Of a DNA stretch of 52,500 nt, positions 3,228-52,500 are shown piece after piece. A program made the position numbers and the translations under genes. Numbering within the stretch: the stretch's first letter is position 1; each line of letters begins with the position of its first letter. Source of the stretch: Nitzschia sp. pyKryTriq1. Lineage: Eukaryota > Bacillariophyta > Bacillariophyceae > Bacillariales > Bacillariaceae. The stretch lies in NCBI GenBank assembly GCA_956465555.1, contig OY101119.1, forward strand, positions 1,598,129-1,650,628, in the 5' to 3' direction. The notes beneath the pieces are model-generated. The model had not been told where the DNA came from, ran no database searches, and was given only the letters and a program-made list of their open reading frames with translations.

Positions 3228-3295
3228 TATTGATGGGCACCTTGTCGATGATAAAGGTGAGCTACGTAAATTATGGGGATGTCGCTATGGTTCCA
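3228..3295. repeat. 68-bp direct repeat, copy 1
   Basis: This is identical to 3472-3539 except for one base (G at the ninth position here, T in the other copy). The repeat starts TATTGATG and ends ATGGTTCCA. Neither copy belongs to a gene I can support. Confidence 0.9.
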
Positions 3296-3471: not shown

Positions 3472-3539
3472 TATTGATGTGCACCTTGTCGATGATAAAG
3501 GTGAGCTACGTAAATTATGGGGATGTCGCTATGGTTCCA
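3472..3539. repeat. 68-bp direct repeat, copy 2
   Basis: Same orientation as copy 1, offset by 244 bp, 67 of 68 bases identical. The intervening 176 bp are not repeated in the window. Confidence 0.9.
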
Positions 3540-9697: not shown

Positions 9698-11121
9698 TTT
9701 CGAATACCCACCACTTTCGTACGAAGGACTCTGAGTTTCGTCACTAGCTTCCTATTTTGCCATCCCCACAAAGATACAACGAAAAAAACAATGGTCTCAT
9801 CTCATCAGAAGCTGATGATTCTAGTAGATATTCCTGTATTGTGGCAAACTAACGCCCAGCGACGGAACAGTGCGTGGGGGGTGCAGTTAGTTCATGTGTA
9901 CGTACAGTAGCTGTACAGTACATGTACCTGTACAGTACTTGTACATACCTACCGGTGAGTCTTGGGGAATAACGTGGATTCCTGCAGACCAGGGGTCCAT
10001 AGCGCGAAGAGCTCTTCGCGCGCTATGGACCCCTGCTGCAGACTCCACCTCTCTCACACGCGCCTTGTTCTCCGCACTTCCACGTGGAATACCTCATCTC
10101 CATAAGCTATCTACAAGTCCGTATATCCTTATGTACTTGGTCTATGACAGAGCGTGTGATCCCCGATTCGCCGTTATTTTCGAGTAAATTTCGAATTACT
10201 GGATCATCGGGGAAGTGCTCGCCCGTACCCTTTTTGGTGTGGGTGGGTGGGAAAGCTTTTACTCTACTATCTATTCCACTGATCTCGATGCTCGAATTGC
10301 GTCGATTTGCAGAATTGTGAGCTCTTGGCTTGTTTGCAGATCGATCTCAAGTAAACCTGCGAACACTCTTCGATTGCTCGCCGTCCTCATTCATCTCTGC
10401 CGCCCGCGCCATTTCTTCCGCACATCTACCAATCAGATTCATTTGATGGCGTCATCATTACTCTGTCTGTCAGGCGTGCGCCTTCCATCAAAAGCTCCAT
10501 GCGGTCGGGCGTATTCTTATCAATTTATTGTAATAGAGCGATCTAGAGCAGTCAGTTGACATGACTCGGAACCGATCTGTTTCTACACCTATCCCTGACA
10601 CCAAGATAGGTGTCAAGCTACAACTTGGTATCATCTCTACACAGTTCGAGATCACGATCAGAGTCATTGATTGATCGTGGAGTGAGTTGAAAAGTGGTAT
10701 CAGTAGTACTGTATCATAATTTCTATTTTAGCATTTCGCGCAACACGCGATACTACGTGCTATTACTAGAAGTTTCAGCCCGTACTAGGCTCATAACCTG
10801 GTATTATCTCATGACAGTACAGTACTTATAATCTTCCCCCCACAAATATTGCGTGGTAGCAGACAGGACAGACAGTACAGTACGAACATAAACGTATTCG
10901 TACATTACACGCGTAAAACAAAGGACCGGACGCAACCACCAGGAGAGCCGAGAATAACGAGAAACGAGCGACACCAAACAAGCAAGCAACAAGCAAGATG
11001 CACCCAAATACACTTTACACTTTCTTTTTTCCGCCCACACTGTTAGCTTTTCATACATTCCAAACAAACGATCGGGATAAGAGATTATCTCGATAAAAGA
11101 GCAAAGAACAGCTGCGCGAAC
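9698..11121. other. Long spacer between divergent genes
   Basis: It carries the promoters of the carrier (leftward) and the gene at 11122 (rightward). It contains GTAC-rich stretches (9895-9955), a large palindrome (9991-10034), a CACGATCA...TGATCGTG inverted pair (about 10652-10678) and a GACACC...GGTGTC hairpin (10598-10615). Open frames at 10084-10559 have no protein-like composition, and I do not call them. Confidence 0.5.
9991..10034. repeat. Near-perfect palindrome, 20-bp arms
   Basis: The left arm AGGGGTCCATAGCGCGAAGA is answered by TCTTCGCGC, an extra GC, then GCTATGGACCCCT. The centre is AGAGCTCT. Pairing continues outward through CTGCAG on both sides after a 2-nt bulge, so the stem can be about 28 bp. 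It is GC-rich and could extrude as a cruciform or form an RNA hairpin. It lies in a spacer with no called gene. Confidence 0.85.
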
Positions 11122-12760
11122 ATGCGGGGCCAACATGTGTTTGGAGCGATTCTTTTGAATCTGCTAGTTTATTTGACTGAAGCTTTCGTACCACACCCCT
11201 CCTCCCATGGGCATGGGGCTCCGCGACCCTCCTTCACGGCGCTAGAAATTTCGTCTGGTCAGTCTGTTATCGTTGTATCGCCTCCAGGAGGCGTGGGCGA
11301 AGTAGCGGCTGTGAAAACAGCTTGTCTTGGGTGTTCTGTACGTTGGTTTGTTGTCTCGAAAGAGCAAGGATCCTCTGTGACCCTTGCGCCTCAAGCCCTT
11401 CAAGAAATATCCGACGCATCCGGATCTTTGGTTCTGGCAGGTGCGAGTGTGGAAGACCTAAAGGCAGGGGGTGAAGCCGTGGCAGCAGTATCCACATGGT
11501 GCTCCTCCGCGAACGGTATTGTTTGCACGTATGATGGGGCAGACGCCGACAATGAACTCAAAGCTGCTATTCAAGTCGCTTCCAAGGAGGCGGGAAAAGG
11601 TGTCAATGGGCCTCGGGTGGCTATTCTCGGAGCAGACGAAGATTTAGATGATGCGTATGAGGTCCAGTCAGATGACGGCGTTGCGCGCCTAGTGGGATCG
11701 ATCTTTGGCGGCGGCCAGAAAGGTCCTGCAACCCTTGCCAGGGCGCTTGGGGGCAATCCCTCGATTGTACGTCACGGGGAACTTTTCGGTATCCCAGAGT
11801 CGTCCTCGGAATTCTCTCCCCTTGTTGGTGGCCCTCGCCGAGACCCTGTTATCACGGAAGAGTACACGATGAGAACTGTACGCGTGGATCCTTTCCTCGT
11901 TTCTGGGAACGTCATGACATCTTCGTCCCGCAAATCTTGTCGCCACGCGGTGGGCGAAGCAGCTGCGTTGCTTGCGACAGGTTGCCTGAAGACACTCTCC
12001 GAAGATGTCAGTATATCGTCGCAGCCAGGAACTGGTGTGTGGACCCTTGATCAATGGGAGGACGAATTCGATCGCGTCCGAGAACTTGTTGCTAGTGGCA
12101 AAGCTTCGACTCTGTTCAGTCAAGAAATGATTGTGGACGACACAGAACGACTGGCAGAGTGGCTTGCTACCAAGTGGGCACCTGCTGTTATGAGAACCTA
12201 TGATATTGCAGCTATCCGTATCGGTGCCAGACCCGTGTCTTCCAGCCGTGTTGAAGGGTCCAAGGTGGAGATCGTTTGGCAAGAGCTTGTGAATTTCGAG
12301 ACCATATGCGTGGGGAAAATGCTTCTAGAAGTGTCAGAATATGGAATAACTGCTTCAAGAGAAGGCGGCGATGCGGCAAAGGGATATGGCTCCATTAGCA
12401 AGAAACCATTGCCAGGTGAAGATGTTTTGGTTCGACGACTGGCTGATGCCGCCTCACAGAGTATCGAAAAGGGGCTTGCGAAGAAGGTACGTTGCAATCT
12501 ACCGATGGTTTGACACCCCTTTCCATCCACTTCTCTCTAACACTTGTTCTTGTTATATTCTACTCTTATCATAACAGGTCCCTTCAAAGAAGCAAGCCAA
12601 ATCTGGAACCGCACTGGCAGCTCCTGTGTCCTCTCTCCAATCCGCTGGATCCGTGGACCCATCACCGACGCCCAAGACCGCTGGGACTGGTCCCCGACAG
12701 TCGGGAGCCCGTCGATCTACACCCCGAACTCGCCGGGGTACGAGCGAAAAATCGTCTTAA
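11122..12760 (+). CDS. Plastid-type protein with an N-terminal nucleotide-binding-like fold, unknown function
   Basis: Two exons, 11122-12486 and 12578-12760, with a 91-nt intron (GTACGT...ATAACAG) in phase 0; 515 residues. Residues 1-22 form a signal peptide ending in LTEAF, with Phe at the presumed cleavage site as in diatom plastid presequences. The mature part starts with a beta strand and glycine-rich turn (SVIVVSPPGGVGEVAAV, about 49-65), followed by strands RWFVVS and SLVLAG, which suggests a Rossmann-like domain as in atypical short-chain dehydrogenases. The middle (about 190-300) and a helical C-terminal domain (about 320-455) are not recognised. The tail encoded by exon 2 is basic, Ser/Pro/Thr-rich and probably disordered. 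Enzyme activity is not supported by any catalytic motif I can see. Confidence 0.82.
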
Positions 12761-14110: not shown

Positions 14111-14208
14111 GTGCAGTCTACTCTACTAGTAGAGAGCAGCTCTACGCTCTCTACTCTCTACTCTCTATACTCTACTCTACTCTGCTCTCTACTAGCTACT
14201 CTACTATA
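14111..14208. repeat. CTACTCTA/TAGAGTA low-complexity repeat
   Basis: About 100 bp of degenerate CTACTCTCTACTCTA units with both orientations present (TCTACTAGTAGAGA). A related block lies at 14500-14575, and weaker ones at 37897-37925. Confidence 0.8.
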
Positions 14209-14228
14209 TCGTAAAGCAGCGAAAAAGT
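14205..14228 (+). repeat. Dispersed motif, copy A
   Basis: TATATCGTAAAGCAGCGAAAAAGT on this strand (shown only to identify its core, AAAGCAGCGAAAA). It is identical over about 25 nt to the opposite strand of 37922-37946. Confidence 0.8.
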
Positions 14229-15097
14229 GCCGTCTATTTTAGTTGCTACATACCTTAACGGTTGAGAGCAATTAATCTCTCTCCCGCCGGAACGATACCA
14301 TCCACTCCAGACAGTCCAATTGATTGACTCAATGGACTCTTTTCACCCGTACGGGATCATCAGCGCTAATCTGCACATCTACAGAGACGATGGAACCGGG
14401 TCCTGTGCTTGCATCCTTCGTCAAGCTCGCTAGCTTTGTTCAACAAAAGATCGGGCTGCTGCCAGCTAGCACGGAGAATAGCGAGCTTTTCTTCCATGCA
14501 TAGTAGAGAGTAGTCTACTCTCGCTGGTAGTAGAGTAGCTACTAGTAGAGTATTAGTAGTTAGTAGTAGAGTGTGTTTTGTAGGCTTTAAAGCAAAAAAT
14601 TTTTTTTAAGTCCCCGGTACAAGTACTAGAATTTACCCTACGTTGGGAATTGTGTTCAAGTCTACAGCGCTCCTGGATTTTCACAACCAACAACAACAAC
14701 AAACTACAATCAACCATGGCGACGATCCCGCTGACCGAACCTCTGAGCATCCTCAGCTTGATTCACCTTTGAATTATTCGTTTGAATGCAGCATTGTGTA
14801 CACTGGTGGAGTACAACCGCCCGAGTACCAACTTCACCTGTTCGAGCTTGGTTGTGTGCGTGTCCATGTGACAAAAAGTCAAAAATCGCTGATCATGCCG
14901 CTGCTGATCCCATCGTCTGGACTGTTGTCACAGCTTTCCCAGGCAACACTGACTTCCGTCGACTTGCCGTCAGTCGATAACAACTCTCAACGGAATCTTA
15001 CAGCCGAAGATATTAATTTGAAAATACTACGAATTCAATTAAAACATATGTGAAATGATGCTCAAAAGGGATCCAGGTGGAAACCGCGCGCGGTGGG

Positions 15098-15241
15098 TTG
15101 TATGGTGTCTACTATACAAGCTTCCGGAGATAGTTGTATGGTGCCAACCATACAGCCAACTGCGATACGTTGTATGGTGGATACCATACAGTGCGTATAT
15201 AGGCATTGTATGGTGCTCACGATACAACTGTGTTTAGTCGA
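15098..15241. repeat. Four-unit array, exact 36-bp period, each unit a small hairpin
   Basis: TTGTATGGTG begins at 15098, 15134, 15170 and 15206, exactly 36 bp apart. Each is followed by 3-4 variable bases and the inverted partner (CTATACAA, CCATACAG, CCATACAG, CGATACAA), giving stems of 7-10 bp, then about 14 unrelated bases. On the minus strand a frame through the array (within 15062-15337) reads a 12-residue repeat C-[IM]-V-x-T-I-Q-x5, with the Val codon differing only at the third base in the four copies. It could be a minisatellite, a set of binding sites or RNA hairpins, or part of a coding repeat. Confidence 0.85.
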
Positions 15242-15818
15242 ATGAATCTTGTAAAGGAGACACAGGCAGTCGTGGGAGTAAATTTTGGTTGATGTGCAGG
15301 GGGTGCAACGGGTGCATCTCATAAGTGAGCCCTGCAACAGCGGTGCATGACCCTCCTGGTACTGATTCTACATACATAAAGGTCTACTACCATAAGTACA
15401 GTACCAGTGTACAAGTACAGTAGAGGTACTCTGGTAGATTGGGGTTTCCCGCCGCGCGCCCCCCCTTGCTTATTTGTTTTTAGTCCCGTTTCCCGGCCCC
15501 TGCAGTCCTGCTTGACGGACGTCGGACAGTCCTTCCGATGCCGACCGAACGATTTAGATTGCGAGAGCCTACACGTACCGGTACAACCTGCAACCGAAAC
15601 CAAGCAATGCTGCTGGCTGCAAATGAAATAAAAATAAAAACAAAAATAAAAACAAAAAACTAAACTGAGAACTGAGCAACAAGATAGAGTTCCACTCTTA
15701 CTCCTTTTCGATAGTCGACACACACTAGTCTACGAAGTAGTCTACTACCGGTAGTTTCAACTGCTACAGAAGGACAGAAGAAAACGTTCCATAGATCCCA
15801 CAAACCACAACCACAAAG

Positions 15819-17781
15819 ATGAATGGAATGGGAATGCGCCCTGGGATCATCATCCTGCGCGAGGGAACCGACACCTCTCAGGTACGTTGCGTTACGTTAC
15901 GTTACGTTACGTTTCGTTGTGCAGTACGAGTGCGAGTGCGAGTGCGAGCACGAGTGCGAGTGCGAGTAAAGACCATATGAGATGCTGCACGCGTGACAAG
16001 CTCAACGTGATACATCGACGTTGACATTCACATCGCTGACTCGCTGCCACCGTGCCGTTGTTCATTTTCTCTTCTTACGAATACTTTGCGAGTAGGGAAC
16101 TCCTCAACTGGTGAGTAACATTAATGCCTGCCAAGCGGTCGCTGATGCCGTCCGCACCACCCTAGGTCCTCGTGGCATGGACAAGCTGGTCGCCACTGGC
16201 CCGAAGACAGTGATTAGCAATGATGGTGCTACAATTATGAAATTACTAGAAATCGCCCATCCAGCCGCCAAGACGCTGGTGGACATTTCCATGAGTCAAG
16301 ATCTAGCAGTGGGTGATGGTACCACTTCGGTCGTCCTCTTGGCGGCAGAAATACTGACCAAACTCAAGCCTCTGGTCGAAGAGGGCATGAGCCCTACCCG
16401 CATGATTCAAACCATTCGCCAGGCGGGCCGTCAAGCGGTCGAAAAAGTGCACTCTTTGGCGGTACAACCCGATCGGGAAACAATGCTCCTGAAATGTGCG
16501 AGCACCGCACTCAACAGCAAACTCATCTCGAGCCATCAAGATCTGTTCGCTCCAATGGTAGTAAGTGCAGTCACAAAATTGCACGCAACAGGAAACCTAG
16601 ATGAAATCCAAGAATGGATCGCCATTAAACGCATTCCCGGGGGCGACGTCCGACAATCTTTCTTGGTGGATGGCGTCGCTTTCAAGAAGACTTTCTCGTA
16701 TGCGGGTTTCGAACAAATGACTAAGAAATTTGCGAATCCCAAAGTATTGTTGTTGAACGTTGAATTGGAATTAAAGTCGGAAAAAGAAAATGCCGAGGTT
16801 AGAATCTCGAGTCCCTCGGAATACCAATCCATTGTCGACGCAGAATGGCAAGTCATATACGACAAATTGGATGCATGTGTCAAAAGTGGAGCCAATATTG
16901 TTCTATCCAAACTACCAATTGGAGATCTTGCTACGCAATACTTCGCTGACCGGGGACTCTTTTGTGCAGGACGGGTCACCGACGGAGATTTGAAGCGAGT
17001 AGCAAAGGCGACCAATGCAAGTATTCAAACAACCACCAATGGACTTACCGAAACGGTATTGGGAACCTGTGGAATATTTGAGGAACGCCAAGTAGGAGAC
17101 GAGCGATTCAACATTTTTACCGAATGTCCCTCGACGTTAACTTGTACCATTGTCCTCAGAGGTGGAACGGAGCAATTCATTGCAGAAAGTGAACGCAGTG
17201 TTCATGACGCCTTAATGGTTGTCAAACGGACCATCCAGTCAGGATCAGTCGTGGCGGGAGGTGGGGCTGTGGAAATGTGTGTTTCCAACTATTTGCGTCG
17301 ACTGGCATTAGAAATTGAAGGCAAGGAGCAATTGATTGTGTTGGCCTTCAGTAAGGCTCTTGAAGTCATCCCACGTCAACTGTGTGACAATGCGGGCTTG
17401 GAATCGACCGATATTCTCTCAGCGCTGCGTCGCAAACATGCCCACGAGGGAGAAGACGCGTGCTGGTATGGGGTCGATATTGAAGAGGGTGGCATTACGA
17501 ACACCTTCGAATTGGGAGTTTGGGAGCCCAGCGATAATAAGATGAACTCGTTCGAGTCGGCGACAGAGGCCGCGTGTGTAATTTTATCCATCGACGAAAC
17601 TGTCATTAGTCCCCCGTCGCAAGATCCGAATGCACACGCAAGTGGAATGATGGGTGGCGGCGGAGGCGGAGGCGTTGGAAATATGATGGGCAACGCTATG
17701 GATATTGCAAACAGTGGCGGTGCTAGAAGCGGTCAATTGGGCCCGGGTGTTTCCTACATGAAGGGTCGCGGAGGAGGCTAA
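15819..17781 (+). CDS. CCT7: Cytosolic chaperonin CCT/TRiC subunit eta
   Basis: Two exons, 15819-15881 and 16096-17781; 582 residues. Exon 1 encodes [20 protein letters not shown], and the splice gives [16 protein letters not shown], matching the start of eta subunits. Group II chaperonin motifs follow: [31 protein letters not shown] with the catalytic-loop Asp, and [10 protein letters not shown] near the C-terminal equatorial domain. The subunit forms part of the eight-membered double ring that folds actin and tubulin using ATP. The tail after about residue 535 is Gly/Met-rich and longer than usual. The 214-nt intron carries two microsatellites (TTACG near 15890-15913 and GAGTGC near 15928-15966). 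Confidence 0.96.
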
Positions 17782-17862: not shown

Positions 17863-19500
17863 TCATATTTCTGCTTGGATTTGATCAAATCCCCCAGAAT
17901 CTTGCAACTGATGGCATGAAACGATTGAAAGGAGTTGTTGGAGGATGATAGATGCAGAAGCGACGGCAAAGCAAACAAAATCGATGAACAGTTGTATTTG
18001 TTATACGAGTACTTACATCCATGGCGTGGTTCGCCAACCAGTCAGCTCGTTTGTTTTCAGCGCGCGGAATGTGTCGTATTTCAAAGTATTCCAAGCCCTT
18101 TGCCACCTCTTGGCAAGAATTGAAAAATTTCTTGAGTGATGGTTCTCTACATTGGTATCGTCCCGTCAGTTGCCGCACAATCAACTGTGAGTCGCCTTCG
18201 ACAATCAGCCGAGAAATCCCGAAGGATCTGGCGCATTTCAGCCCAACCCTACGAGTAATTGCAAAAAGGGGAAGCAGGTTAGTTTTGCCCCGGCTTTTCA
18301 TGTCAGAGGTGCATGAACTTACAATAGCCCCAGGTATTCAGCCAAATTATTAGTGGCGGCCTCATGATGGAATCTCCACCCACACCAGATTTCTTGGCCA
18401 CTGTCGTCATATATCACCATTCCCGCGCCCGCAATCCCTGGATTCCCCCTCGATCCTCCATCGAAGCGGAGTAGGTAGGTTCGTGATGGATCGATAGCAG
18501 CTGAAAAGGAAGGTGGATCTGGCTGTCTCCATTGACCATCCTCCGTTGGATTCCGGTCGAGATCTTTCATCGGGTCACTGATATTCAGATCGCCATTTTC
18601 ATCTAATTCGACATTGAAGGATTTGCGCGTGGCAAGTGCTTTGCTCGCCAACTCTATACAAAGCGCATTTTCCGTCGTAGGAATTTCTGCAATGGAAAAG
18701 AAATCGAATTTTTGTTCCACTTCCCGTTCTTTATCCAGAAGCAAACGTAACGACTCTTTGTTCACTTTAAAGACACCACGAATCTGTTGGGCGATGACAT
18801 CACTCGATGTCTGAAGAAGTAGTCGCCTGATACCGATTGTTTGATGTATATACTCCATGCCAAGTATCACTCCAGTATATTCCGCTTCAAACAGGGTGCG
18901 ATCTCCGGCCATATACATCCCACCGGACCACAGTTCCTTATCCGTGTCCGGGTCGTACAGGGCCAGCCCCACGCCCAACCCACCACTTTTCTGTGTGGTT
19001 TGTCCTTTCACGCGAAGGACGTACAAGGTGTTCGTATCAAAAGTCGGAACTACTTTCGAAGTGCCATTCTCACCGTCACCTTCATCGAGGACTTTTATCA
19101 GCCGGTTGGTCAACATGATCCGATCTCCCTTGGTTTTCACTCCACGAGAGGCGAGCTCGCCCCTGAGCTCTAGCGTTTTCATCTGGAGGACATCCCTTTT
19201 CGTTAGATCAGGGTTTGATACGTGTTGACTGGAACGCCGGGAAGTCCTACTACCAGGATACGGCGCGGCCCTTGGGAATCCTTCCATGATTGCCTTGACG
19301 CGTTCCTTGGTCAACAGGGTGATCGCCGAGAGGCTGCGCTGATGACACTGAGAGGGAAAGTGCCTTGTCGAAGAAGCGAGACCTGCCATATGCCAGGCCG
19401 ACGTCATTCGGCTGCGCGAACTCAAGGAAGTAAGGACTATAGACATGACGAGGGTAGTAGCAACTCCTTTAAGTGCTGGCCGAAAAGAAATCTTCGGCAT
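17863..19500 (-). CDS. SAP-domain protein with two RNase H folds, the second one catalytically complete
   Basis: Three exons: 19500-18323, 18248-18017 and 17907-17863; 484 residues. From Met at 19500 the N terminus is basic then hydrophobic (ALKGVATTLVMSIVLTSL), suggesting a signal or organelle presequence. A SAP-type helix-turn-helix (about 99-141, LTKRDVLQMKTLELRGELASRG) should bind nucleic acid. A first RNase H-like domain (about 155-285) lacks the first catalytic Asp (LRVKGQ where FDGG is expected). The second has all four acidic residues: D347 in RFDGGSRGNPG, E388 in NNLAEY, D412 in EGDSQL and D462 in NKRADWLAN. It should cut RNA in RNA-DNA hybrids. An ATG at 19611 is an alternative start. 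The stop lies 82 bp from the CCT7 stop, convergent. Confidence 0.85.
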
Positions 19501-20438
19501 CACGCTATTGCCTTCCGCATCTGACTGCGAATAGATGTCCCAGGTCCGCCCAGTCCCAGAAGTTTTTTCAAGATTGAAGAACAGGTCCACACCACCAGAG
19601 CACCTCACCATGGACCATGGTCCTTTTTTATTGCGGATTGCGGTCCATTTTTTGCTCTTTTTGTCCGGATTTTTTATATTGCGAAGAAGTCGTCGCAATC
19701 GAGTCTGACCACCAGCCGGCCGGCGCGATGGCACAGGCGCCAACTAACCCTCAACTCTCTCGGACACACTGTCGACCGATGATGTAGTAGATGATAGAAT
19801 AATTCGCTGGCCTATGTCCCTAGTCGATTTTGATTTGCATAGCAAAGTCGTCCTCTTTCGGGAATACCCTGGGGTACATCTCCTTGCCTTGTTCTCATCA
19901 AGGTGTAAAGGGATGGCGGGTGAGTTTTTAAAAGCTAACTAATCTAGAAATCTGAAGTTGCGATTGTCGTCGACTTGAGCTTGCTTTTGCCAGGCTCTTC
20001 GAGAGACAAAGCTTGTGCAAGAGTGCTTGCGTTCATTCTTGGCTCTCTAGCTCCTGGTCATTGGGAGTCAATCTTCTAATGACCCAATCTGCTTTCAAGT
20101 ATAGTGTGGGCACCTAGCAGGATATATTATGGTATCATAAATCATAAATATATGTGGTCATAACGGTGTGGTACAGTAATTGTTAAGTCTGGCCGGTGGT
20201 CAGACTCGATTGTTGGCCAGAAACGCGCTCGTTCGACGTTCGACTTCAGGAATGGTGATGACGTACAAGTACGTGTACTGTACATACGACGTTTTAGAGA
20301 ACACCGGATATTCACTATTCCAACTCTCTATCGGTATAGCGAGTAAATACCGTACCAGCCTCTCTACTGAGAAAGATGATTCTTGGACAATCAGATTACA
20401 TTCGATTCCCTTGCATTTCGACCCGAAATCCTGATACG
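19501..20438. other. Spacer between divergent RNase H and yebC genes
   Basis: It holds the promoters of both genes. I see one GTACAAGTACGTGTACTGTAC stretch near 20263-20283 and no gene. Confidence 0.5.
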
Positions 20439-28672: not shown

Positions 28673-29332
28673 TTTGTGTACTCGTAGGTCTAGTCTTTTT
28701 CGTTCTCTTGAATGCCAAGAGTTGCAAAATAATGCGAGGTGGTTAGCGTTGGTGTAATTATTTATTATTTGTAATGAATCGTCGTCAGTTAACACTTCTC
28801 TGGTTGGCGAGTTACAAAGTACTCGTAGCGCACACGTCTGCGCTGTTTTCGCGGAAGCTGGATTTTTGACTTCGGATTGATGATACTGTACGAACGGTAC
28901 CAGTACCTGGTACCGGTCGGTATGTACCGTACTATTTTTTTCAAATTCGTCCAATGACAGTTACGCCTGCCTCGCTTTTTTTAGTCGGTGAAGTCAAAGT
29001 ACAATACCGGTACAGTTAGAGTGTAGTACCTATGGGTTGTTGTTGTTACTACGAGGGAGTATGTTACCCGTTGTTGTTGTTGTTGTTGCTACTCATACCG
29101 TACCTGGTACCAAGACAGGTACAGTACCTGTACTGTACCGGTACAGTACTCAGTACTCAGTACTCAGTACTTACTGGTACATTACCAGGTACGAGTAAAG
29201 TACTGTACCAGTTCCTGCACTGTATTCCTACAGTACAGGAGTACTGTGCTGTACAAGTTGACAAGTAGTGCAGTTCTCCTTCAGGGCTTCATTTGCTTTT
29301 CCAACTTTTAACTTCATTTTGATCACATTTGC

Positions 29333-29352: not shown

Positions 29353-30088
29353 CTATAAGGGCCTGGAAGACTTTAACGCCTCTTAGTCTCCGCTAGTAAA
29401 AACATGATGTTTCTGCCACGACCATGTCATCTCATCATCCTGCCTCGGGCCTGCAGCAGCACGACTGTTCTTGTCGCCACTCTACCTCCTGCTGCCTGGG
29501 TGGGAGGGCGTTTTGGGCTCTCAAAAATGAAGAAGTGCATGGGTCACAAGAGGAGAAGTAGAATTTGGGTCACGCTCGAGTAATTGGGTCACGCTCGAAT
29601 CACGGGTGTCGTCATTTTTTTTGTGTCTTGGTGATCTCGTAGGCGGAGTAGATTAGTGAGCGTGATTATTAGACTACAGGTGGTACATACCACACTAACT
29701 GTAGAAGTTGGATGACCGGGTGTGCGCGGTCACAGCTGCGCGGGAAGGATAGTAGTCTTCTGTACGGGGGGGGAGTACCGGTACCGGTAGGTACTGTACC
29801 AGGTACTCGTACAGTACCAGTACTCGTACCCAGGGGTACATTGTACCCCTGCTCGTACCGGTACAAGTTGGTGCTCCTTCAGGCCATCAAAAAAATCCAA
29901 AGCCGCGTCTTCATTATTTTTGTATTCTTCACCATAAAATTGAAAATAATCAGTACTTGTACTTTGTACTTGTACAATAAACCTCTATTGTCGGCCATCC
30001 AACCACATTTCATACTCGTAGAGCAACGAGTAAGAGCTCAAAGCCCACAGCATCTACCAGCGTTTTGCGACCGCCCCCAATACCGCTG

Positions 30089-37485: not shown

Positions 37486-38510
37486 TGGTATATTGCACGC
37501 TTGGGATAAGATGATATAGTCTACTGTATTATGAATACGTAGTACTGCAAGGAATGCTACAGTAAAGAAATTCAAATAGCGGCATGTGTGATGGGAGCGG
37601 CGCATAGTGGGCGTACCAGGTACCACCGTTTCGTACAATAAGTACATACCTAGGCATCTTGCTCTGAGCCTTCCGACTTGGAGTCTCGATGCCTGCCTCC
37701 GCCGCCGCCGCCGCCGCCTACAATACTACTTGAATTCATACTTCATACCTGAGACTACTGGTAGTCTTCTACTAACTTCACGGCACATGCGACTCGTTCG
37801 ATTCGCATCCATTTCCACAATGCCCTCCGGTCAAGGGCGGGGAGCGACCGCAGTGGGACGATTACAATAATCAATCATAATCACAAGTACCGTTAGTTTC
37901 TACTACTAGTAGTCTCTCTACTACTTTTTCGCTGCTTTACGATATAGCTTGATAGTTTTTCCTACTTCGCTGCTGTCTCTCTTTACTACTACAGTATGGT
38001 AAGCATGTAATAAAAGTTGAAAGTAGTGGGGGTGGCTCTTGTCCGTCACTTCGGGCTGCCGAAGGTCAATTCTCTAGAGAAGTTAGCACAGAGTATTCAA
38101 CAACTTCCTTGCCCCTGGGTGAAATTTGATTGAGTCGTTTTGGAATTTAAAGTCGTCTCAAACCAAATAAAATAGTAGGCATAGCCTACTTCTTCTACGA
38201 TGAGGGTGGTCTTGAAGGACAGATCGAGAATATTGTTGCGAAATCGTAGCAACCCTGTGCCGGTTAGTCATGCCTGTAGACCCCATCGACGTTTTGAGGC
38301 AGCGATTTCCACTTTCGCGAATAAATGATTGAAATAGCTCACACAATGCCGTCGCACTCGTACAAGACCTTTGAGACAGGCAAATCCATTCATTAATAAG
38401 CATCGCGTCCCTTCGCCTAGAGTGTTTTCAATGCCTCCTCCAAAGTCAGCGGAGCAAAGGGCTTGCGTTTCCTTCGACGTCTTCTGAGGATCCTTCACTA
38501 CGACAGTTGT
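37486..38510. other. Spacer between two minus-strand genes
   Basis: It contains a CCG/GCC trinucleotide run (about 37691-37713), CTACTAGTAG repeats and copy C of the dispersed motif. Minus-strand frames at 38158-38498 are open but unconvincing, and may belong to the alanine racemase 3' UTR. Confidence 0.5.
37923..37946 (-). repeat. Dispersed motif, copy C
   Basis: Opposite-strand match to 14205-14228, about 25 identical bases including CGATATAG at the end. It is again next to CTACTA repeats, so copies A and C share a wider context. Confidence 0.8.
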
Positions 38511-40727: not shown

Positions 40728-41952
40728 TTTGGGGGTGCGGGATAGGGCGTCTGGAGTGAAACTACTTGTGCTTGTGGTGCAGTAATCAAGTGACGCTGAG
40801 GATTGTCAAGATTAATACAATAACGTGGACTGGCTTCCTTGGGAATCATCCGGGTATTTTAAAGTTACAATACAAAATACAATAATGTGGGGTGCTCTGT
40901 TTCTCGATGTCGAAGGTGTCGGTTCGGTTGTTGCATCATTATCAGTGCAGGTGGACAGTGCAAAGTGGACAGTCTGTTCTCCTCTCGTTTTTTGGTATGT
41001 GTGTCTGTACTTCGTACGTGGTGCAGACAGAAAAGTACGAGTGTACGTGCCGGTACGTGTACAGTCAGGAACGGTTCACAAACTCACAAAAACGAATCTG
41101 TCACGTCTGTCCGTCGCGCACGTTTCTTCATTATAGGCATATATATATTCATATACGACATTATCAGGACACACGACGGATTGCACGCAATGCGAGGTCT
41201 GTCATCCGTCACGAGGTTTGTGACGCGTCGCGAATACATCGCGACACGTCGAGGATAGCGATACCGGTACGATGGACGAGGACTATTAGGCGGCGTCTGT
41301 CGAAGCTGCGGTAGCCGCGTTGCGACGCGTCGCGATGTATTCGCGACGCGTCACAAACCTCGTGACGGATGACAGACCTCGCACTGCTTGCAATCCGTCG
41401 TGTGTCCTGATGATGTCGTATCAAATTATATATATGCCCACAATGAAGAAACGTGCGCGACGGACAGACGTGACTGATTCCGTTTTTGTGAGTTTGTCAA
41501 CGGTTCCACAGGGGCTAACGGTAATGTTGGCCCCTGCGTACAGTACAAGTACCAGGTACCTGGTACATACCGGTATGTACTGTAGACAATGCGTGCGGGA
41601 AGACAAGTGCTACGTACAACAGCCAGACTTGGGAGAACCAGATCAGAAAAAATACCGGTGCTAGTACAAAAATCAAAACAAACCAGAATGAAGAAAAAGA
41701 ATAATCATCATCATCATCATCATCCCATGGCAGGAGGAACCCAGGGATCAGCCACCGGTAAACTAGTAGAGTGTGTTGAGATTGAACTACGATACCCAAT
41801 TCTCTGGAGCGAGAGAGGCTGATCCTTATAAACACGAATTTCCTAAATTACGTTTTTCAAATCTCTACTACTACTAGGCTAGCTAGAGAGACCCCACCCC
41901 TTCACGAGCGAGCAGGCAGCACCGAACAAAGCATTGTTTGATTTCTCAACTA
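40728..41952. other. Spacer with a foldback element
   Basis: It begins with the alanine racemase promoter (CAATACAAAATACAATAA near 40867), then holds the foldback element, a GTAC cluster at 41538-41582 and an ATC run (41704-41724). Frames on both strands inside the foldback are mirror images and not genes. Confidence 0.6.
41070..41506. mobile_element. Foldback/MITE-like element with long terminal inverted repeats
   Basis: Left arm 41078-41251 and right arm about 41320-41497 are reverse complements over roughly 175 bp, with only about a dozen differences by eye, starting ACAAACTCACAAAAACG and containing GACGCGTCGCGAATACATCG. About 68 bp of unique sequence (with TACCGGTAC) lies between. AACGGTTC occurs directly outside both ends in the same orientation (41070-41077 and 41499-41506), which looks like a 7-8 bp target site duplication. 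No transposase is encoded, so it would be non-autonomous; the duplication length fits hAT or Mutator-type transposases. Confidence 0.85.
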
Positions 41953-43818: not shown

Positions 43819-44602
43819 GGTTAGCTGATCGACGTTGGATTATGGAAAGCGTGGCACTGCCAAGTATTATTTTGGACAGTCGAAAGGCAGGCAAGAAGGA
43901 CTGCCCACGCCGAGAGCAATCGAGATCATCTGTCTTTCGACTTGTCGGCATCAATTCTCAAAATCTTCCTGCGATGCGTTGGCGAGCCCAGGGCGAGCCT
44001 CTGTTGATATTTTTTATTGAATATTCGTATCCACGATATTTTTATGTTCCCTTTGTGAATAACCGTTATATTTAACGGTCAGAATCGCTATGGGCGCGCC
44101 CCCCGCCGCGACGTACCGTTACTGTATGAGTACCAGTACCAGGTACTTGTACGGTACTCGTACCTAGTACCGGTACCCGATGATTTCATCAGAGCGGTCG
44201 GTGGACAAGCCTCTACAGTACCGATAAGGTGCCAGTACGGCGGTACCGGTACTGTATTGTGCGCCATTCCGGCATGCTATGGTACTCCGTGTTAATGTAC
44301 GTGCGGCCGGTTTCCCATAACACTCTATTTACTTAGAGACGGGAGTCCTAAGTTACACCCGCCAAACGTCTAAGTATTCATCGCAGCCTAAGTAAAGCTA
44401 TATACGAACACGGATATTGTAATCCCCGCTAAAGGGCGCCATCCTGTCCGTCACAATTATACAAGCAAATTTGGGCTAGAACCAAGCAAGCAAACACCGA
44501 ACACGACGAGTGGGAACAATATTGTCTTGTCTACTATTTGCTCTGACCGGAGCTTCCAATGCACAGAAGTACAACTGTTGGGGTATTATATATCAATCGA
44601 CA
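43819..44602. other. Spacer between divergent genes
   Basis: It contains a GTAC-rich block (44112-44260) with several TACCGGTAC palindromes. It would be a shared promoter region for the two disordered proteins. Confidence 0.5.
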
Positions 44603-50388: not shown

Positions 50389-52500
50389 TGTATTGTATTG
50401 TAATGTATTGTACTATATTAATACGCTTCCACTGTCCACTTTCTTTCTCGCAGGTTACTCAAGGTTGGAGTATTGGATTGAAATGTTGTGGTTGCGCCTC
50501 TCGCCTCTCGCCGCCCTTCATTCTTCAGCTGGCATGAGATGTTGGTTGTTGGTTGTTGGTTGTTGGATGCACGGTCGGTGGTGCACGGAGCTTTGTTTGC
50601 TTGATTGGAACCGTTCAGTTTTCAGTAGGACTGAAAGGCTGATAACCTAATTTTCCAGGGGCGGCGGAGCGTGCAGGCGCGCATCGCACTGGTTTCGACG
50701 GGTGGGGTTTGGGTTCGTGACAGGTTCGTGATCGGGACAGATCCAAATTCGTACATACAGGTACGGGTACTACTTGTGTACTTGTACCCGTACTGTACCG
50801 GTACCGGGTACCGACAGACAGTGTATGAATACATAACATACATACTTCGTACTGGGTACCGGTACCTGGTACACGGCGTAGGACTTGATGATAAAAAAAA
50901 TGACATCCTTGATTGTTTCTATCGGGCCTACTTGTAGTACCAGGTACTGTACGGGTACCGGTACAGTCAGTACTACATTCCCATTCACCGTACTTTTTCC
51001 TACAAAATGAAAACTTTGTAGTGCATTGCAGTATCCTGAACCACCATTTGTCATATACCGTAGTAGACTAGAACCAAGTCGAATCATCCTCGAACGACAC
51101 CTGCAGGTGCGAAACTAATATCTCCTCATCGGGCATGGCAGTTGAATGACTTGAAAAGGTCCAAGACGAAACAACATCTTATTGCAAGCAACGAACAATG
51201 CTCCAGCACCCAGGCGACGAAGCTCGAACGGTGGAATCTCCCTTCCTTCCGACTGCCCCCACCCTCTCTACAAGAGCCAGTCTAGAGAGCTAGTATCAAC
51301 CAAGCGAGGAGACGGAGTGTCGAACGATGGCGATAAGTGCAAGTATGTTCCGCGAGGGTCACATGCACCTCGGTGGATTCTGGGCTCATCCATGGCTACT
51401 GTCTGGAGTCGAAATCAGGTTGAACAGGTGGGGGAGGGGGTGGGGTGGGGAAGTCAAGAAAGGAACAAGAAATGGTTCAAATGGGGATCCAACGTGTTAC
51501 CGGCTTTGTTATCACTACCGGCTTTGCTATCGCAAGGATTGGTCAAAGTCGAAAACGCGAGGATTGGCTTTGGAACTGTTGCAGTTGGTCGAGACTGTGC
51601 ATCGATCCAAGCTGCCAATCTTGCTAGCTGGCATGGGACTGGAGTTAACTACGAACTGTTTCTTCTCTGGTCTCGGGTCTCGGCCCTATATCACAATCTG
51701 CGATGAATCATCCATATACGATCTTCGTGCCGTCGCACTGTTGGTCCTCGCCCGATTATTTTTGCGAATGATAATGATAGCTCTCTGTACAGCCCTTTCC
51801 GTTCCCAAGCCGACGATTACGATTCCGGCCCTACTTACACGCGCTCAGCATTCTCGTTATGCCGAAGAACTGTATGCTTGATATCAGCAAAGTGATACAT
51901 TCAACTTGCCGAGGCATCAGTTGGAGCAGCCACTGCCGTCGCGTTGAAGCTTGCTTGTAGTCGGTACCAGAAAGCAGTTCAGGGGCTCAAGACAAGTGAA
52001 ACGTTTTTCAACACTGCCGGAATGATTTTCATCTCTAGTAGTAAGTCTACTACAGGTACGAGTATCTACAGGCGAGAGTCTTTTTCCTTCTCGAACGTGC
52101 TCAGGAATGCGAGATCGCATCAAAAGAGTACTTGATGCTGGAACGATCGAAGCCTGTCGAGCCGCGCCCTTTGGAGTACCTATCGTAGTTCAATGGTCCG
52201 CGCGGGTACAAAGCAAGTTTATTGAATGGCACAAGATTCGAGATTCTTGAATGGCCGTGGCGCGAAGTCGGGCCTAATGGAGATGTTTAGATTCACCGAG
52301 CTACTGGTCTCGAGAGCTTGCAAGAATGGAAAGAGAAAGTGGGTACGATTGCAATTGGAGGTCTGAGGCGCGGATTGCTGTGGTCGAAATCAGGTCGTGA
52401 CGCGGCAGGGGGTCTCAAAGGAAGGAACAAAGAAAAATCGAATGAGCATGTCGTTCCTCGACTCTAAAGCGTGAAGGACTATCGGGCAGCCTTGTTTGTG
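50389..52500. other. Right-end region without a supported gene
   Basis: 50389-50650 is the eIF3m promoter, with a TTGTTGG tandem (50542-50566). 50755-50975 is GTAC-rich. 51180-51880 has two long overlapping plus-strand frames (51182-51706 and 51327-51881) of unequal quality; the second includes LALELLQLVETVHRSKLPIL. An 18-bp tandem duplication (51498-51533) lies inside. 52100-52250 has a short frame with RIKRVLDAGTIEACRAAPFG. These could be decayed pieces of one gene or exons of a gene continuing past the right edge. Confidence 0.4.
51182..51881 (+). pseudogene. Possible gene remnant in two overlapping frames
   Basis: The protein-like stretches move between frames: Ser/Arg-rich in the first (51182-51330), then mixed helical in the second (51540-51700), with a G-rich run at 51427-51460 where slippage is easy. 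A duplicate-like fragment (GTCGAAATCAGGT, then AAGGAACAA) recurs at 52384-52430. No family is recognised; it may also be an intron-containing gene. Confidence 0.2.

Follow-up and report, generated by a model that had tools for sequence, protein, structure and literature searches.

The window, a 52,500-nt stretch of the genome of Nitzschia sp. pyKryTriq1, contains four imperfect palindromes arranged in tandem within the 3' portion of a dispersed repeat (Table 1). The window copy corresponds to approximately the last 330 bp of the element and is followed, some 0.4 kb downstream, by a TCP-1/CCT-like gene, whose main open frame (16111-17781) matches PF00118 with an E value of 1e-150 and which, judging from its sequence, may possess a short first exon from about 15819. 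The limits given for the repeat are the points at which likeness to the sister copies stops, its true ends being unproven.

Other features are scattered over the window. An open frame on the minus strand (18319-19743) has two stretches that match PF13456 (reverse transcriptase-like, RNase H type), and a frame at 11122 has a plastid-presequence-like N-terminus. An inverted repeat with 164-nt arms, 92% complementary and 71 nt apart (41088-41251 and 41323-41486), contains repeats of 33 nt in which CGCGACGCGTC-type sequence is abundant, and is possibly a foldback or MITE-like element. A 68-nt direct duplication (3228-3295 and 3472-3539) is 99% identical, its copies being 244 bp apart, and a 25-nt perfect inverted match, CTATATCGTAAAGCAGCGAAAAAGT, connects 14204-14228 with 37923-37947; this pair may represent a further dispersed repeat. 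Palindromes built on GTAC (GTACCGGTAC, GTACAGTAC, GTACCAGGTAC) cluster at 9896-9950, 29100-29150, 29787-29830, 44125-44179 and 50778-50967. GTAC itself occurs at 1.19 times its Markov expectation, the highest value among the 16 four-base palindromes, and several copies of the element adjoin GTAC-palindrome sequence.

Table 1. Position and make-up of the repeat, its palindromes and the neighbouring gene in the window (C labels denote copies of the repeat)
Feature	Positions	Strand	Description
Window copy of dispersed repeat	15073..15399	+	3' part, 5' part missing; blastn against sister loci
Palindrome unit 1	15098..15119	+	TTGTATGGT GTCT ACTATACAA; also in C13 and C10
Palindrome unit 2	15134..15155	+	TTGTATGGT GCCA ACCATACAG; all 7 array loci
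Palindrome unit 3	15170..15191	+	TTGTATGGT GGAT ACCATACAG; identical in 7/7 array loci
Palindrome unit 4	15206..15227	+	TTGTATGGT GCTC ACGATACAA; identical in 6/7 array loci, last base T in C2
Conserved 3' region	15242..15399	+	ends in AAAGGTCTACTACC, after which the copies diverge; C10 without it
TCP-1/cpn60 chaperonin gene (CCT subunit)	15819..17781	+	PF00118; host neighbour, outside the element

Structure and coding potential of the array

The sequence TTGTATGGTG occurs at 15098, 15134, 15170 and 15206, at a pitch of exactly 36 bp, and each occurrence opens a 22-nt imperfect palindrome of the form TTGTATGGT-NNNN-ACCATACAA. A unit is composed of an arm of 9 nt, a loop of 4 nt, a second arm of 9 nt and a spacer of 14 nt, so that the palindromes extend from 15098 to 15227 and the last spacer reaches 15241. 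All four window units have the same left arm and the same first loop base (G), and the right arm of each, following TTGTATGGTG, carries one change relative to a perfect complement, with 8 of 9 arm positions in Watson-Crick pairs throughout. The arms are common to all units of the array, the spacers differ from unit to unit. When up to three mismatches are allowed, the palindrome is found four times in the window against 0.02 expected, a number that none of 100 shuffles reached. The first-pass annotation had described four hairpins with an exact 36-bp period, each with an inverted partner followed by 14 variable bases; the positions and the shuffles bear out this description, the partner being an imperfect one.

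The same annotation had read the heptad C-[IM]-V-x-T-I-Q on the minus strand and had suggested a fragment of a protein repeat. The heptad is present there, and the plus strand also reads C-M-V-x-T-I-Q; both strands carry it because the units are palindromes. The third-base changes reported for the Val codon do exist, but the changing base is a variable base of the loop. Neither frame of the array has a match in Pfam (E up to 0.01), and neither is held open across copies: on the plus strand it ends after 37 codons in each of the four three-unit copies and after 59-63 codons in the remaining three array loci, and the minus frame meets a stop within the array of the C13 copy. Given the heptad on both strands, the lack of a Pfam match and the closed frames, we reject a protein repeat. 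With copies elsewhere in the genome, the array is no lone curiosity either.

Copies of the repeat across the genome

The genome searched comprises 40.65 Mb in 20 contigs, and an exact search returned 21 units in eight places. Identical order and pitch of the same units are seen at seven loci including the window, on six contigs and with differing flanks; further arrays were thus found by the genome search that had been proposed at the outset. The occurrence of one sequence in several unrelated genomic places is as expected of a dispersed mobile element. Four units are present in the window, C13 and C10, and three in C2, C5b, C7 and C9. In these three-unit copies it is the sequence upstream of unit 2 that is different, the array itself not having slipped, and the first base of unit 2 is A instead of T. 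An eighth, degenerate copy (C8, L049) has extra bases within unit 1, TAC-type triplets being inserted into both of its arms. Each unit is nearly identical across the loci that carry it, while the four units differ from one another, which agrees with the earlier remark that this is not a simple minisatellite. Since the series of units is preserved from locus to locus while the flanks differ, we conclude that the array was already established when the element began to spread.

In blastn comparisons the window copy is 98.8% identical to C13 over 15073-15398, 99.4% identical to C10 over 15073-15250, and 94.8-97.4% identical to C2, C5b, C7 and C9 from 15135 to 15399-15423. The 3' region of about 160 bp that follows the array, ending near 15399, is common to six of the seven array loci and is absent from C10. 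A query with 15275-15400 gives eight matches in the genome, the window itself counted, and the 5' region of C7 gives 14, its own locus counted, many of them cut short; many copies carry one end only. C7 is the longest copy read. It starts with GTAGTATCTGTCCC, measures about 1.7 kb and contains an open frame of 151 aa, GT-rich simple sequence, a 45-bp minisatellite and three array units. The minisatellite varies in number, with about two copies in C9, four in C7 and nine in C5b as counted by reading. The 151-aa frame has no relative in Pfam, in solved structures (PDB) or in viral contigs, and in its own genome it is found in four places, namely the query itself and three partial matches. The copies read include no autonomous one and showed no transposase or recombinase, and the exact two-unit array pattern is absent from the viral_contigs and genome_contigs collections. 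Full-text searches for diatom or algal elements with palindromes gave no account of this repeat family, and a prior description is possible.

The element ends, as read, are GTAGTATCTG at the 5' side and TACTACC at the 3' side, the exact ends being unproven. In C7 and C1 (L051 and L052), which lie on different contigs, the likeness continues upstream for 42 bp past the usual 5' end, so that the ends read are provisional; one of these two copies may derive from the other together with its flank. No clear terminal inverted repeats were found in the copies read. The terminal inverted match is limited to a short GTAGTA/TACTAC and a weak inverted similarity (score 55 against a shuffle mean of 37, reached by 6 of 500 shuffles). 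Inspection of five copies gave no convincing target-site duplication. An 8-bp sequence, CCGTAGTA, stands at both ends of C7 and was rejected as a target duplication, because it is element sequence at the 3' end, common to four loci.

Do the copies reveal a constraint on the palindromes? Over units 2-4 in seven copies, the varying columns number 1 of 53 in arms, 0 of 12 in loops and 4 of 42 in spacers (arms versus spacers, p 0.17; arm-and-loop 1/65 versus spacer 4/42). When unit 1 of three copies is pooled with these, the counts are 1/87 for arm-and-loop and 5/56 for spacer, with p 0.03 if position 15134, the varying first base of unit 2, is excluded, and 2/88 for arm-and-loop with p 0.11 if it is included. 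The degenerate C8 copy is excluded from these counts. Downstream of the array, 4 of 157 columns vary among six copies. In this weak test the arms are not clearly less variable than the spacers.

Palindromes near both ends of the longest copy

A scan of C7 with the array motif revealed two further, diverged palindromes, TTGCATCGT ATCA ACCATACAT and TTGAAACGT TGTT ACCATACAA, each with three mismatches, 38 bp apart and 241 bp from the 5' end. Two such palindromes were obtained in none of 500 shuffles of C7 3352-4660 (expected 0.0). The pair is also found in C5c and C5d, with three and four mismatches. A motif repeated in both subterminal regions, as in CACTA-type elements, is therefore present in C7, with two palindromes on the 5' side and three on the 3' side, at distances of some 170-240 bp from the ends. 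The sites also have a polarity. With the array's left arm and its complement as the reference, the better-matching half-site is the right half at the 5' side and the left half at the 3' side, in both cases the half towards the interior. This holds for four of the five C7 sites, both halves of unit 2 scoring alike, and for all four window sites. This inverted layout is as expected of the end-binding sites of a DNA transposon.

Both 5' palindromes are kept in only three of the 14 loci with a 5' region: C7, C5c and C5d. At L052, L054 and L055 likeness to C7 breaks within the first of them (C7 3593-3614), that is, at three of the six loci that reach it, the joint being displayed for L052 and L055. 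The remaining loci end before this palindrome or are without it. A deletion hotspot or a site of action is a possible explanation of these breaks.

A putative set of subterminal binding sites

We propose, with a probability of about 0.58, that the array belongs, as a constant internal component, to a dispersed family that resembles DNA transposons and is probably non-autonomous, in which it would provide subterminal sites for a mobilising protein. By analogy with CACTA elements, the palindromes are best read as putative binding sites for an element-encoded transposase or a partner protein. A dimeric protein would bind each palindrome, and dimers bound in sets at either end would pair, drawing the ends together for mobilisation; such pairing is possible because the sites lie inside both ends of C7 with the better half-site turned inwards. 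The dispersal, the maintained order and pitch of the units, the palindromes near both ends of C7 and their inward orientation are seen directly in the copies, and it is the protein, its binding and the pairing of ends that we infer.

CACTA elements (En/Spm) appear, on this analogy, to be the closest precedent. PMC2613891 reports that subterminal repeats of the soybean element Tgmt* form two left-hand and 12 right-hand palindromes, describes TNPA as recognising subterminal repeats in Spm/En, and adds that recognition of the compared motifs by proteins was still to be determined. To call the array undescribed, as had been done initially, was too strong in the light of these reported subterminal palindrome arrays. 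Like Tgmt*, the element has a palindromic motif in both subterminal regions in unequal numbers: two left and three right in C7, and four right in other copies. Unlike CACTA elements, it has a fixed 36-bp pitch and an unrelated motif, no CACTA termini at the ends read (exact ends being unproven), no 3-bp target duplication seen and no Tnp2 in the copies read. In the hAT element Hermes, according to PMC10368747, a quasi-palindromic pair of subterminal repeats is bound cooperatively by two BED domains of the transposase. Palindromic subterminal sites are common to Hermes and to the present element, in which protein binding is putative; however, the Hermes sites are short AAGT motifs near the tips and the half-sites described here are 9 nt long and 170-240 bp inside, and the 8-bp target duplication has no convincing counterpart in our copies. 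For piggyBac, PMC11707139 describes 19-bp palindromes in both ends, to which two domains of a transposase dimer bind. Palindromes at both ends and a binding role, here putative, are points of likeness, whereas the present element has no TTAA at the ends read, longer palindromes and a tandem array.

How do the other explanations fare? It is unlikely, although worth keeping in mind, that the palindromes are sites for a host transcription factor in a regulatory region of the element, driving or silencing its open frame. A dimeric factor fits palindromic sites, and the second 5' palindrome of C7 ends 11 bp before the ATG of the 151-aa frame; a promoter, however, needs no three or four evenly spaced, inward-turned sites near the opposite end. 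Across the genome the motif with up to three mismatches has 447 matches, element copies included, against 334 for a reversed control pattern. A bolder version of the transposon reading invokes an undescribed superfamily, whose protein would read an array of palindromes spaced like a ruler at 36-38 bp deep inside both ends and not at the tips, take half-site polarity as marking the inside of the element from its outside, and perhaps cut at the palindromes, within which three of six 5'-side copies break; we regard this as distinctly improbable. Slightly more doubtful still is a structured RNA, in which units 1+2 and 3+4 of the plus strand would form a pair of hairpins of about 72 nt with a role in the element's transcript. 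The plus strand folds at -77.2 kcal/mol (z -8.3) and the minus strand at -47.9 (z -4.4), the plus-strand z of the array is the second lowest among 698 segments scanned, and the plus fold contains nine G-U pairs where the minus fold has none. When the arms are kept and the spacers shuffled, however, the mean is -71.4 versus -78.0 observed, with 39 of 600 shuffles folding as well, and the minus strand gives a mean of -50.0; the arms therefore explain most of the fold energy and of the strand difference, since spacer shuffling preserves most of both. A G/T-rich conserved left half with transitions in the right half would yield an equal wobble bias, and the 5' sites of C7, read by eye, contain no plus-strand G-U pair. 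As a main function, RNA structure was set aside as not separable from the palindromes. Two Rfam hits were taken as chance: let-7 at 15084-15172 on the plus strand (21.9 bits versus a gathering score of 53.5, E 0.079) and AHBV_epsilon at 15388-15436, likewise below its gathering score.

The palindromes could also be recombination sites of a tyrosine-recombinase element. Inverted arms that flank a short core suit such enzymes. TATGG occurs in each half-site of the array, and of the six loci whose likeness to C7 extends to the first 5' palindrome, three break off within it, as recombination there might produce; hairpin-prone deletion can leave breaks of this kind as well. In the CryptonS elements of oomycetes and a diatom, PMC3212892 gives TATGG as the terminal sequence of most, whereas here it is internal and repeated; the element starts with GTAGTA and finishes with TACTACC at the ends read, short terminal direct repeats of the Crypton type (TATGG) are not present at the ends read, and a match of five bases is weak. 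We consider a CryptonS-like origin very unlikely. The odds are just as long for a neutral minisatellite that was frozen as the repeat spread. The 45-bp unit, different in number in C9, C7 and C5b, demonstrates that minisatellites arise within the element, and arms that are not clearly more constant than the spacers among copies would suit such an origin. Against it, the arms are common to the units while the spacers differ, and the 36-bp array shows no slippage among copies, those with three units differing in the sequence upstream; a neutral origin is disfavoured.

It was the discovery of the same units elsewhere in the genome that resolved a striking local pattern. If the reading of the array as subterminal sites for a mobilising protein is right, a repeat family with subterminal palindrome arrays would be added to an alga-like genome, and the array could serve directly as a probe for its binding protein.
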